This document shows positions 55,657 to 57,490 of a DNA stretch of 64,000 bases, piece after piece. Source of the stretch: Streptomyces vietnamensis (GTDB lineage Bacteria; Actinomycetota; Actinomycetes; Streptomycetales; Streptomycetaceae); contig NZ_CP010407.1 of assembly GCF_000830005.1 (NCBI RefSeq), positions 3,949,001 through 4,013,000 of the forward strand, written 5' to 3'. The notes under the pieces were generated by a model. It was not told the DNA's origin. It ran no database searches and saw only the letters and a program-made list of their open reading frames with translations. A program made the translations under genes and the position numbers. Position 1 is the stretch's first letter. Every line of letters starts with the position of its first letter.

Positions 55657-55701
55657 CACAGCGGCGCCATCGCGTTTCAGGTCCGCGATGGCGCCGCTGT
55701 G
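55657..55701. terminator. Bidirectional terminator after the PPOX gene
   Basis: An 18-bp perfect stem starting CACAGCGGCGCCATCGCG, with a nine-base loop, lies between the convergent PPOX and Rieske-like genes. Confidence 0.9.
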
Positions 55702-55743: not shown

Positions 55744-56061
55744 TCAGGCACTGCGGGGGGTGGCGGTGATGGCCTCTGGCTCGATCAGCTGGTGGTCGCG
55801 CTGGTCGAGGTTGACGAAGATCATGCCGTACCGGATGGCACAGCGGATGGGCTGCGGAGCGCCTCGGGGACGGCGCAGACAGCGGTACGCGCGGACGTCT
55901 TCGTCCTGTTCGCGGGCGACGACGATCGGCTCTCCGAAGAGCGTGACCTTCAGCGAGTCACCACGGTGGGGGATGGCCGTGGCGAGATCGACGAAGTGCC
56001 AACCGGAGCGATAGGCCGAGGCCATCTCCCGACGGAACCTGGGGTCATCGGGAACATTCAT
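55744..56061 (-). CDS. Rieske oxygenase-like remnant without its [2Fe-2S] ligands
   Basis: The product has 105 residues with an ATG start at 56061. The N-terminal part follows the start of Rieske oxygenase alpha subunits (WHFVDLATAIPHRGDSLKVTLFGEPIVVARE). The expected C-x-H-R-G is replaced by CLRRPRG, and the second C-x2-H is missing. The strand that normally follows much later (YGMIFVNLD) comes right after it. It looks like an internally deleted Rieske domain that kept its reading frame. It starts eight bases after the secreted DPGW-peptide gene and is probably translated from the same message. It cannot hold the cluster; another role, or decay, is likely. Confidence 0.75.
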   Translation of the reverse strand: MNVPDDPRFRREMASAYRSGWHFVDLATAIPHRGDSLKVTLFGEPIVVAREQDEDVRAYRCLRRPRGAPQPIRCAIRYGMIFVNLDQRDHQLIEPEAITATPRSA

Positions 56062-56069
56062 GCGCCCGA

Positions 56070-56288
56070 CTAGCTCCAGCCGGGGTCCTGCGCCGGAGCC
56101 ACGCTCCAGCCCGGGTCGCCGGGCAGCAGGGAGGCCGCGGTCAGGTGCCAGCCCGGGTCGAGCGGAGCGGCCTGGACCTGCGCCGGCTCCGAGCTCCAGC
56201 CCGGGTCGAGCACAATTCCCGCACCCACCGTGGCAGCCGCGATGAAGGCGACTCCGGCCGCCGCACGTATGAGCTTCTTCATCATCAC
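56070..56288 (-). CDS. Secreted peptide precursor with four DPGW repeats
   Basis: The product has 72 residues with GAGG seven bases before a GTG at 56288 (two ATGs follow at once). A signal peptide (KKLIRAAAGVAFIAAATVGAG) precedes a tail with four D-P-G-W units: LDPGWSS, LDPGWHL, GDPGWSV and the terminal QDPGWS. The repeat spacing is about 11-18 residues. The DNA repeats are not identical, so selection on the peptide is likely. It is the first gene of a two-gene unit with the Rieske-like remnant and is divergent from a LuxR-type regulator. A processed signal or surface peptide is the simplest idea, but it is inference. Confidence 0.75.
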   Translation of the reverse strand: MMMKKLIRAAAGVAFIAAATVGAGIVLDPGWSSEPAQVQAAPLDPGWHLTAASLLPGDPGWSVAPAQDPGWS

Positions 56289-56332
56289 CGAGCAACCTCA
56301 CTTGAAGGCAACGTCTGGATTCCAACCCCCGC

Positions 56333-56353
56333 GAGTAAGACGATGGCTTACTC
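56333..56353. promoter_or_regulatory. Candidate operator between DPGW-peptide and regulator genes
   Basis: GAGTAAG (56333-56339), seven bases, CTTACTC (56347-56353) form a perfect dyad in the 130-base AT-richer divergent gap. A second weaker dyad, GCATC-N10-GATGC, lies near the regulator start. Confidence 0.65.
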
Positions 56354-56418
56354 TCTGCGCCCGCACCACCAAACCCAGGCATCATGTTCCTGAGATGCAG
56401 GAGCCTGGGGGTGTACAT

Positions 56419-57399
56419 ATGCGGAAACAAGCGGACCAAACAGGTCACCCTCATTCGCATGCCGAACTGTGCGAAGCGGGCTCCGAGCTGTACGCGGCCG
56501 CTCTGCGGACCGGGCGAATACCCCGGTCAGAAGCGGTCGAGGCGCCGTGCCTCCTCGACCTCTCCCTGCTCCACCCCGACCCGGACGACGCGCAGTGGCT
56601 GCGCCCGGTGCCCCCCTCCGCGGCCCTCGCCCAGCTGCTCCAGCCCATCGAACGGGAGATACTCGACCGCCGGCGGCGCACCGTCGCCCTGTCGGACGCT
56701 TTCGAGCCGTTCATGGCCATCAGCGCCCACGACTCCCCCACCACACACGCCATCACCGTCCTCGAGGGCATCGACCGCATCAACTCGACCCTCGACCGCG
56801 TCGTGGCCAACTGCCGCAGCGAACTCCTCACCGTGCAGCCGGGCGGCGGTCGCCCCGCGCAGGCCCTCAGCGAGGCCCTGGACCGCGTCTCCCCGCTCCT
56901 CGGCCGCGGCATCAGCATGCGCACGCTCTACCAGCACACCGCGCGCCACACCGAGCTCACCCTGACCTATCTGGAGCACGTCGGCCCCGAGGTCCAGGTC
57001 CGCACCCTCGAAGAGATCATCGACCGGCTGATCATCGTCGACCGCGAGGTCGCCTTCATCCCGGCCCGCAGCGACCGCCAGGTCGCCCTGGAGCTGCGCC
57101 ACCCGGGCCTGGTCGCCTACCTCGGCGGCGTCTTCGACCAGTTCTGGCAGCTGGCGGTGCCGATACGGGAGGAGATCCCGTACGACGTGAAGACCGACGG
57201 CATCGGCGGCGTCCAGCGCTCCATCGCCAAGCTCCTCGTCGAGGGCCACGTCGACGAGGCCATCGCCCGCCGGCTCGGGATGAACGTGCGGACCTGCCGG
57301 GCGCACATCGCCAAGCTCGCCGCCGCCCTCGGCAGCGGGAGCCGGGCGCAGCTCGGCTATCTGATCGCCCAGTCCGGAATCCTCGAACGGGACAGCTGA
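56419..57399 (+). CDS. LuxR-type helix-turn-helix transcriptional regulator
   Basis: The product has 326 residues from the ATG at 56419 with GGGGG eight bases upstream. The C-terminal helix-turn-helix (DEAIARRLGMNVRTCRAHIAKLAAALG) is of the GerE type, although only about 40 residues remain after it. The long N-terminal part (about 20-270) is mainly helical and contains segments like LEHVGPEVQVRTLEEIIDRLIIVDREVAFIPARSDRQVALELRHPGLV (landmarks R-T-L and F-I-P) reminiscent of TrmB-like effector domains. It is divergent from the DPGW peptide, so peptide-linked or autoregulatory control is a testable idea. Confidence 0.8.
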   Translation: MRKQADQTGHPHSHAELCEAGSELYAAALRTGRIPRSEAVEAPCLLDLSLLHPDPDDAQWLRPVPPSAALAQLLQPIEREILDRRRRTVALSDAFEPFMAISAHDSPTTHAITVLEGIDRINSTLDRVVANCRSELLTVQPGGGRPAQALSEALDRVSPLLGRGISMRTLYQHTARHTELTLTYLEHVGPEVQVRTLEEIIDRLIIVDREVAFIPARSDRQVALELRHPGLVAYLGGVFDQFWQLAVPIREEIPYDVKTDGIGGVQRSIAKLLVEGHVDEAIARRLGMNVRTCRAHIAKLAAALGSGSRAQLGYLIAQSGILERDS

Positions 57400-57458: not shown

Positions 57459-57490
57459 CTCTGTATCTCTGTACCTCTGTACCTCTGTAC
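57459..57490. repeat. Four copies of an 8-bp unit beyond the hspR stop
   Basis: CTCTGTA(C/T) occurs four times in tandem, ending six bases before the hspR stop codon. It lies next to a terminator, as the 8-bp repeats beside purA do. Confidence 0.85.

Follow-up and report, generated by a model that had tools for sequence, protein, structure and literature searches.

A variable tetrapeptide unit and a TrmB-LuxR-like regulator in Streptomyces: a candidate peptide-signalling pair

A 64,000-nucleotide stretch of Streptomyces vietnamensis DNA (contig NZ_CP010407.1, positions 3,949,001 to 4,013,000, hereafter the window; the genome is 9.15 Mb) carries a divergent locus that raises the question of whether a small secreted protein built from repeated four-residue units serves as a signal for the regulator encoded beside it. 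The locus consists of a secreted precursor (56070-56285, minus strand), a Rieske-like protein of 105 residues (55744-56061, minus strand) and, divergent from the precursor, a regulator of 326 residues that we propose as the receptor (56419-57399, plus strand). An earlier, sequence-only reading of the window had suggested a peptide-mediated switch built on DPGW units, and we find that idea supported: the peptide and the regulator are linked at 122/122 loci, and the ligand-like domain of the regulator co-evolves with the unit, which is DPGW in some species and [D/E/N]xxW generally. We put at roughly 75% the probability that peptide signalling of the one-component kind is encoded here, with a cytoplasmic receptor that would read a tetrapeptide.

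The open reading frame (ORF) described in the sequence-only reading, with a signal-peptide-like start followed by four DPGW units, was borne out at 56288-56070 on the minus strand. Its reported length of 72 residues holds for the alternative GTG start at 56288; the conserved start is the ATG at 56285, since relatives begin MMKKL, and gives 71 residues. The units lie at 56196-56207, 56148-56159, 56106-56117 and 56076-56087 (all minus strand), and the last of them, said to sit at the very C-terminus, is near-terminal, with one serine between it and the stop codon. The statement that codon usage varies among the four units proved mostly wrong, as units 1 to 3 each read GAC CCG GGC TGG and unit 4 reads GAC CCC GGC TGG. 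With codons mostly the same in the window, selection on the units is shown by comparison between species and not by the window alone. The precursor is the sole [D/E/N]xxW carrier among the eight signal-peptide-like small ORFs of the window (simple in-house filter) and has no Pfam or NCBIfam match up to E 1. Eight other precursors were compared with NCBIfam only; four gave no match and four gave weak matches far below the cut-offs.

We searched 150 Streptomyces genomes with the regulator, of which 131 matched at E ≤ 1 × 10−40 and 19 were without a match. Nine genomes with weak matches (G018, G031, G048, G060, G063, G064, G086, G090 and G137) were left out, and the best locus of each genome with a strong match was examined, giving 122 loci (30 from a first search and 92 with wide flanks). 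All 122 hold a precursor ORF with at least one [D/E/N]xxW unit between the Rieske-like gene and the regulator, and in all 122 precursors a signal-peptide-like stretch precedes the first unit (by a simple filter, not SignalP). Because precursors were assigned with the help of the motif and of N-terminal strings, the figure of 122/122 is partly by construction; the position of the ORF and its signal-peptide likeness are independent of the motif and so back the assignment apart from it. A first scan for at least two [D/E]xxW units recovered 94/122 loci, and the motif was widened to [D/E/N]xxW because the other 28 had single units or N instead of D or E. The Rieske-like gene is also present at 122/122 loci, although three versions (L096, L111 and L114) are just 38-44% identical. 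Linkage, on which the sequence-only reading had let its proposal depend, was seen at every Streptomyces locus examined, for the peptide ORF and the Rieske-like gene alike. Among the best 80 titled loci of a species collection, taken from a capped list, 76 were parsed with a peptide and the remaining four (L305, L310, L325 and L331) show it on reading; their ORFs, which carry EPSW or EPTW, fall outside the filter and are not in the residue counts. Genome G063, one of the nine left out, has a Rieske-like match together with its weak regulator match, a possible loss or assembly gap.

Across the 122 loci the unit has the form [D/E/N]-x1-x2-W and occurs in 1-12 copies per precursor, with at least two copies in 96. 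There are 39 distinct tetrapeptides, among them DPGW, EPSW, EPTW, DSGW, DTGW, DIGW, DLSW, DSTW and NSSW, and the unit core underwent 53 changes on the tree. From the first unit onward, 364 of 365 tryptophans fall inside a unit. Copies within one precursor were identical in 610/617 pairs, and between loci the same tetrapeptide was found in 234/7381 pairs. By position, identity within a precursor was 0.41 at −1, 1.00 at D, 1.00 at x1, 0.99 at x2, 1.00 at W, 0.65 at +1 and 0.33 at +2, and identity between loci was 0.23 at x1 and 0.18 at x2; the first and last positions of the unit are conserved through the choice of motif, which is not so for x1 and x2. Copies with the same amino acid used different codons in 29% of pairs at x1 and 42% at x2. 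Of 1668 codon comparisons in the core over 119 loci, 11 showed a nonsynonymous and 419 a synonymous difference; of 2088 in the spacers, 1289 were nonsynonymous and 375 synonymous (L057, L104 and L112 were left out here and included in the copy-pair counts, where L112 entered with 11 units; the locus scan gives it 12). Since identical copies often use different codons while the spacers mostly differ in amino acid sequence, we conclude that sameness within a genome is kept by selection. We infer that a unit constant within a genome and changing between species is what one would expect if a specific partner reads it in trans.

The obvious candidate for such a partner is the divergent regulator. 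Its predicted structure (predicted local distance difference test, pLDDT, 79) matches TrmBL2 and TrmB across residues 12-251, phospholipase-D-like domains at residues 109-249 and a LuxR-type DNA-binding domain at residues 257-326. By this model the regulator is a TrmB-like protein, with winged helix and coiled coil (residues 12-107; 56452-56739, plus strand) and a phospholipase-D-like ligand domain (residues 109-249; 56743-57165, plus strand), joined to a LuxR-type helix-turn-helix (HTH; residues 260-325; 57196-57393, plus strand). The sequence-only reading was right about a divergent 326-residue HTH regulator and too simple in calling it LuxR type, as the likeness to LuxR is confined to the C-terminal domain and the rest is TrmB/phospholipase-D-like. 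In TrmB the counterpart of the phospholipase-D-like domain binds sugar, according to the title of structure 2f5t; here we propose it as the tetrapeptide pocket. An autoinducer-binding domain is absent from the regulator's Pfam matches up to E 1, the region before the HTH being phospholipase-D-like. Tetratricopeptide repeats (TPRs) are likewise absent among these matches, and the assignment of residues 12-107, 109-249 and 257-326 to other folds leaves no room for them. No export signal was noticed in the regulator, which we take as cytoplasmic.

Within the ligand domain, two residues follow position x1 of the unit. Residue 136 is Leu in 18/18 loci with x1 Pro, Met in 46/46 with Ser and Val in 24/24 with Thr, and residue 157 is Asp in all loci with Ser (46/46) or Thr (24/24) and acidic in 0/52 with Pro, Ile, Leu or Val. 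In the 34 loci with x1 Ile, Leu or Val, residue 136 is Val, Ile or Ala and residue 157 is Gly, Ala or Ser. S. vietnamensis, with Pro at x1, has Leu136 (codon at 56824-56826, plus strand) and Val157 (56887-56889, plus strand). An acid at residue 157 facing the hydroxyl of Ser or Thr at x1 would be chemically sensible. A coarser first co-change test had found, of 205 columns, three for x1 and four for x2 at p < 0.005, with about one expected. On a tree that included the ligand domain, 14 of 19 changes at residue 136 fell on branches where x1 changes (2.2 expected), and on a tree built without that domain 15 of 23 did so (3.3 expected); the family-wise p was 5 × 10−5 on both trees, the floor of the test. 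For residue 157 the family-wise p was 0.0086 and 5 × 10−5 on the two trees. With x1 and the whole ligand domain compared, co-change was in excess on the tree built without the domain (414 versus 309, p 0.0008). Summed co-change of the HTH domain with x1 was below expectation. By these tests the x1 signal resides in a few residues of the ligand domain.

Pairs of loci joined by edge-disjoint paths on the tree were compared as well. Residue 136 or 157 differs in 23/25 pairs with different x1 versus 1/27 pairs of similar distance with the same x1 (p 2.6 × 10−11). The 27 are the pairs left once those with a distance below half the median of the different-x1 group had been dropped. With a looser cut (25 versus 36 pairs), one of the 36 same-x1 pairs differs at residue 136 and one at residue 157, and among 179 columns residue 136 ranked first (p 1.6 × 10−10), followed by residue 157 (p 8.5 × 10−4). 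The other tree gave p 2.2 × 10−9 and 9.8 × 10−3 for the two residues.

The x1 rule was written down before 60 loci were fetched and 29 already fetched loci were scored (the latter being L129-L168 minus 8 loci of genomes already used and 3 duplicates). It fits at both residues in 87/89 of these further loci (60/60 and 27/29), the misses being L129, where DPVW goes with Ile157, outside the stated set, and L154, which has an alignment gap at residue 136. None of the held-out regulators is identical to a training regulator; held-out relatives share ancestry, however, so the edge-disjoint pair test is the stronger evidence. Another 66 titled loci, counted after removal of 10 whose regulator equals one of the 122, had Leu136 in 58/59 P-type cases (the other being a gap), Met136 in 3/3 with x1 Ser and Val136 in 4/4 with Leu, Ile or Val. 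That the regulator binds the tetrapeptide is strongly supported by this co-variation. For the remaining positions of the unit the picture is less sharp. Residues 145, 149 and 153 show co-variation with x2 that is suggestive only; Arg145 accompanies x2 Gly in 36/36 loci, and Ser or Phe145 is found in 8/8 where x2 is Arg or Lys. Asp143 occurs in 9/9 loci with N at the first position of the unit, but in 6 D-type loci too.

We also examined related regulators. S. vietnamensis has six more of the TrmB-LuxR family at E ≤ 1 × 10−15, and five of their loci hold a small secreted motif ORF (DSQW twice, DTGW three times, DFVW twice, and two with single units); no motif ORF was found at the sixth, L035. 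With one and the same filter a motif ORF was detected at 29/30 main loci, 13/30 loci from other genera of the family and 8/11 loci from two other families (the last counted regardless of orientation), and at 0/30 loci of ordinary LuxR-type regulators drawn from 20 partly overlapping genomes, the control loci covering 94,974 bases versus 115,544 for the 30 test loci. In 26 paralogous pairs (of 27 motif-ORF loci, L181 with DAAW being left out as doubtful), residue 157 is acidic in 19/19 with x1 Ser or Thr versus 3/7 others (Fisher p 0.0023). Further regulators are present at 72/92 wide-flank loci, and in the same-strand tandem ones residue 157 is acidic in 52/52 at S/T loci and in 1/30 at I/P/L loci. 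Very short precursors occur in other families, for example one of 39 residues at L224, with the unit right after the hydrophobic stretch. Two paralogous loci have features of their own. At L036:999-1430 the two DFVW units are embedded in a mature part containing proline and cysteine, and the peptide ORF lies downstream of the paralogous regulator and convergent to it; at L195, outside Streptomyces, an ORF 987-1400 from the regulator start has NLNW five times (as NLNWD), the top copy number among the paralogous pairs.

A link to a described phenotype comes through S. coelicolor. The Rieske-like protein of S. violaceoruber (P0207), a species that we regard as a near relative of S. coelicolor, has the same sequence as its counterpart in genome G696. 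The G696 locus (L348) carries the primary regulator, a tandem one of 327 residues and a convergent one of 394 residues (L348:3709-4893); its precursor ends DTIWS, and its receptor has Val136 and Asp157, matching the rule for x1 Thr. The primary regulator is under the LuxR cut-off (PF00196), and the tandem and convergent paralogues are above it. Table 1 of a published study gives SCO3665 with 327 residues and SCO3666 with 394 as LuxR family members (PMC3282765), and a primary regulator under the cut-off would explain why only these two are in that table. SCO3664 is very probably the orthologue of the window regulator. In passages of another study, insertion into SCO3664, termed only 'regulator', gave one of the mutants with actinorhodin raised more than 50-fold, and the gene is named together with SCO2686 as a down-modulator of actinorhodin (PMC6585502). 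The Rieske-like protein of S. venezuelae, SVEN_3427 (P0134), agrees with that of locus L010, the precursor of which has EPSW four times.

In the peptide-signalling reading, the precursor would be exported by the Sec route, as its signal peptide suggests, and cut around the units, freeing a signal with the tetrapeptide [D/E/N]-x1-x2-W and perhaps one residue more. The signal would enter the producer and its kin via a peptide importer and bind the phospholipase-D-like domain of the divergent regulator, where residues 136 and 157 would read x1, and binding would alter the action of its DNA-binding domains at the shared gap and at further targets. A precursor with several units would yield more signal. 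Signal and pocket would switch together between species, giving mutually deaf dialects, and paralogous pairs with other tetrapeptides would make several channels per cell possible. Because the SCO3664 insertion mutant over-produces actinorhodin, the natural role may be to hold antibiotic production back until there is a change in the signal state. We also lean, at somewhat better than even odds, towards a tetrapeptide language that is Actinobacteria-wide, with several [D/E/N]xxW-TrmB-LuxR pairs per cell, a residue code, and species dialects gating antibiotics and group behaviour.

Several observations weigh against the signalling reading. Export, processing, binding and re-import are all predicted from sequence. 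Single units in 26/122 precursors mean that many copies are not essential. On the tree including the ligand domain, x1 and the domain as a whole show no excess of co-change (215 versus 232). No regulator column survives correction for x2 in the pair test, and for residue 145 the family-wise p was 0.12 or 0.004, depending on the tree. By the filter, 17/30 regulator loci of other genera have no motif ORF. In the paralogues residue 136 tracks x1 within lineages only (Val 6, Leu 4 and Ala 1 with Thr; Leu 4, Met 3 and Ile 1 with Ser), and in the same-strand tandem regulators it does not strictly follow x1. The convergent third regulators do not obey the rule, with Val136/Ala157 in 53/53, all at S/T loci; being constant where the tetrapeptide calls for Asp157, they probably sense something else, and they act as a control inside the same loci. 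PF00196 scores 17.4 bits on the window regulator, under the 23.5 cut-off, with a fold that matches LuxR DNA-binding domains. The equation of SCO3664 with the window regulator is based on gene order and lengths, not on S. coelicolor sequence.

Other explanations have to account for the same data. The regulator could be a sensor of export status that binds units in the not-yet-exported precursor and reports on secretion or folding, with nothing re-imported. A receptor taken as cytoplasmic would suit this task, as would the position of the locus next to protein-quality genes, with clpB on one side and a MerR regulator-dnaJ-grpE cluster on the other, and the multiple units of a precursor would add avidity. 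A housekeeping role, however, needs no 39 tetrapeptides in 122 loci and no 53 core changes on the tree, and in the very short forms of other families the unit, judged by eye, coincides with a signal-peptidase site or lies close to one, which fits release; we consider an export sensor unlikely. It is also conceivable that the units are secreted for a role in the wall or outside the cell, such as adhesion or binding, that the regulator just controls the gene, and that the match of unit and residues reflects common descent. The precursor is indeed predicted to be secreted, repetitive and divergently transcribed, but the edge-disjoint pairs (23/25 versus 1/27) remove common descent, the convergent regulators at these loci do not track the unit, and neither the HTH domain, with its summed co-change below expectation, nor any Rieske-like column stands out, so that this explanation is scarcely credible.

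The Rieske-like protein matters most for a third possibility, that the units are cores of a ribosomally made, modified antimicrobial or surface peptide, with the Rieske-like protein helping to modify it and the regulator giving feedback. Ribosomally made modified peptides can have several core copies after one leader, and the Rieske-like gene, which starts 8 nt behind the precursor in S. vietnamensis and is present at 122/122 loci, encodes the sole candidate modifying enzyme. The usual Rieske ligand pattern is CxH and CxxH, with two Cys and two His. The sequence-only reading had stated that the ligands were lost; this is true of both His, replaced by Arg63 in 119/122 and Arg77 in 122/122 loci, and both Cys are still there (Cys61 in 118/122, Cys74 in 120/122). 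A Rieske-like fold is suggested by Foldseek (best 5aeu, E 7.9 × 10−4, on a model with pLDDT 72) and, in sequence, by phmmer to 2bmo (E 0.0011), with PF00355 at 17.2 bits versus a cut-off of 20.3. These matches are to the N-terminal domain of the alpha subunits of Rieske ring-hydroxylating oxygenases, from which the Streptomyces protein differs in having 105 residues, Arg for both His and no room for the catalytic domain. Besides lacking the His ligands and being too short for catalysis of that kind, it shows 0/39 tested columns co-varying with the unit at p < 0.005. By the genus grouping that the searches use, its matches are confined to Streptomyces, yet peptide-regulator pairs occur outside: a search with a Rieske-like protein found it in 321/392 Streptomyces genomes, in 51 of 200 family genomes (all of one genus of 17) and in 23 of 296 class genomes (all of one genus of 114); a record titled Microtetraspora glauca (L285) carries the gene. 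Taken together, a ribosomal peptide product is quite improbable, and the Rieske-like protein might, tentatively, be a non-redox helper.

If the signalling reading is correct, the closest functional parallel would be the RRNPP systems of Bacillota (Rap, Rgg, NprR, PlcR and PrgX), which share a short Sec-exported propeptide beside a cytoplasmic regulator, export being predicted here. RRNPP signal-receptor pairs change fast, as the Streptomyces pairs do. Published RRNPP criteria name a short propeptide adjoining a cytoplasmic regulator of 250-500 residues, and the same source describes the signals of Actinomycetota as typically enzyme-made small molecules and those of Bacillota as oligopeptides (PMC10075063, in the passages considered). 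RRNPP receptors have TPRs, whereas the Streptomyces receptor has a TrmB/phospholipase-D-like fold and a LuxR-type HTH; the tetrapeptide system would thus work like RRNPP but is not a member, because this fold replaces the TPRs. It further differs in having four-residue units, as many as 12 per precursor, and in its actinomycetotal host. With the archaeal TrmB and TrmBL2 the regulator shares winged helix, coiled coil and phospholipase-D-like ligand domain (alignments over residues 12-251) and differs in the added C-terminal LuxR-type HTH; the ligand of TrmB is a sugar, and co-evolution points to a peptide for the Streptomyces regulator. Unlike LuxR-type acyl-homoserine-lactone receptors, it has a phospholipase-D-like ligand domain and no autoinducer-binding domain among its Pfam matches. 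Fungal alpha-factor-type precursors also hold several copies of one signal per secreted precursor; the Streptomyces system is bacterial, with a four-residue unit and a proposed cytoplasmic receptor. Where quorum-sensing reviews turn to Streptomyces or certain Actinobacteria, the passages considered name gamma-butyrolactones and show no Streptomyces peptide signal. We could match the receptor and the signal family to none described, and recognised no account of such a peptide or regulator among the papers listed by searches of the open-access literature, a scope that most subscription papers lie beyond.

Many antibiotics used in medicine come from Streptomyces and related bacteria, whose hormones known so far are mostly small molecules produced by enzymes. 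If the signalling reading is true, a cheap synthetic tetra- or pentapeptide would be a chemical key to a regulator implicated in actinorhodin restraint, and a receptor readable from sequence would offer a test bed for joint signal-receptor diversification. The paralogous pairs in the same genomes could possibly be orthogonal switches to wake silent clusters. Confirmed binding would extend TrmB-like regulators from sugars to peptides.

Targets for the DNA-binding domains were sought in the gap shared by precursor and regulator. The perfect 7-bp dyad GAGTAAG-N7-CTTACTC put forward in the sequence-only reading exists at 56333-56353, but the same dyad occurs in 1/122 orthologous gaps, and we reject it as the regulator's operator. 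Perfect 7-bp dyads of any sequence were found in 19/122 gaps versus 3/122 shuffled ones, so dyads as such are enriched. CATCATG (56380-56386 in the window) is present in 122/122 gaps, CATCATGTTCCTG in 108, GACGATG (56339-56345) in 110 and TCCTG-N5-6-CAGGA in 90/122, the last as TCCTG-N5-CAGGA at 56388-56402. These conserved elements are candidate operators. A sigma-70-type scan found no promoter.

The precursor and the Rieske-like gene probably form one operon. The C-terminus of the Rieske-like protein is conserved, reading ATPRSA in most of the 122 loci. In the window, clpB and a pyridoxamine-phosphate-oxidase-like gene border the locus at one end, and a MerR-family regulator, dnaJ and grpE do so at the other. 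The intergenic stretch of the convergent oxidase-like and Rieske-like genes contains a perfect 18-bp inverted repeat with a 9-nt loop (55657-55701), probably a two-way terminator. At 57459-57490, in the interval from the regulator to the MerR-type gene downstream of it, the 8-bp unit CTCTGTA[C/T] stands in four tandem copies.

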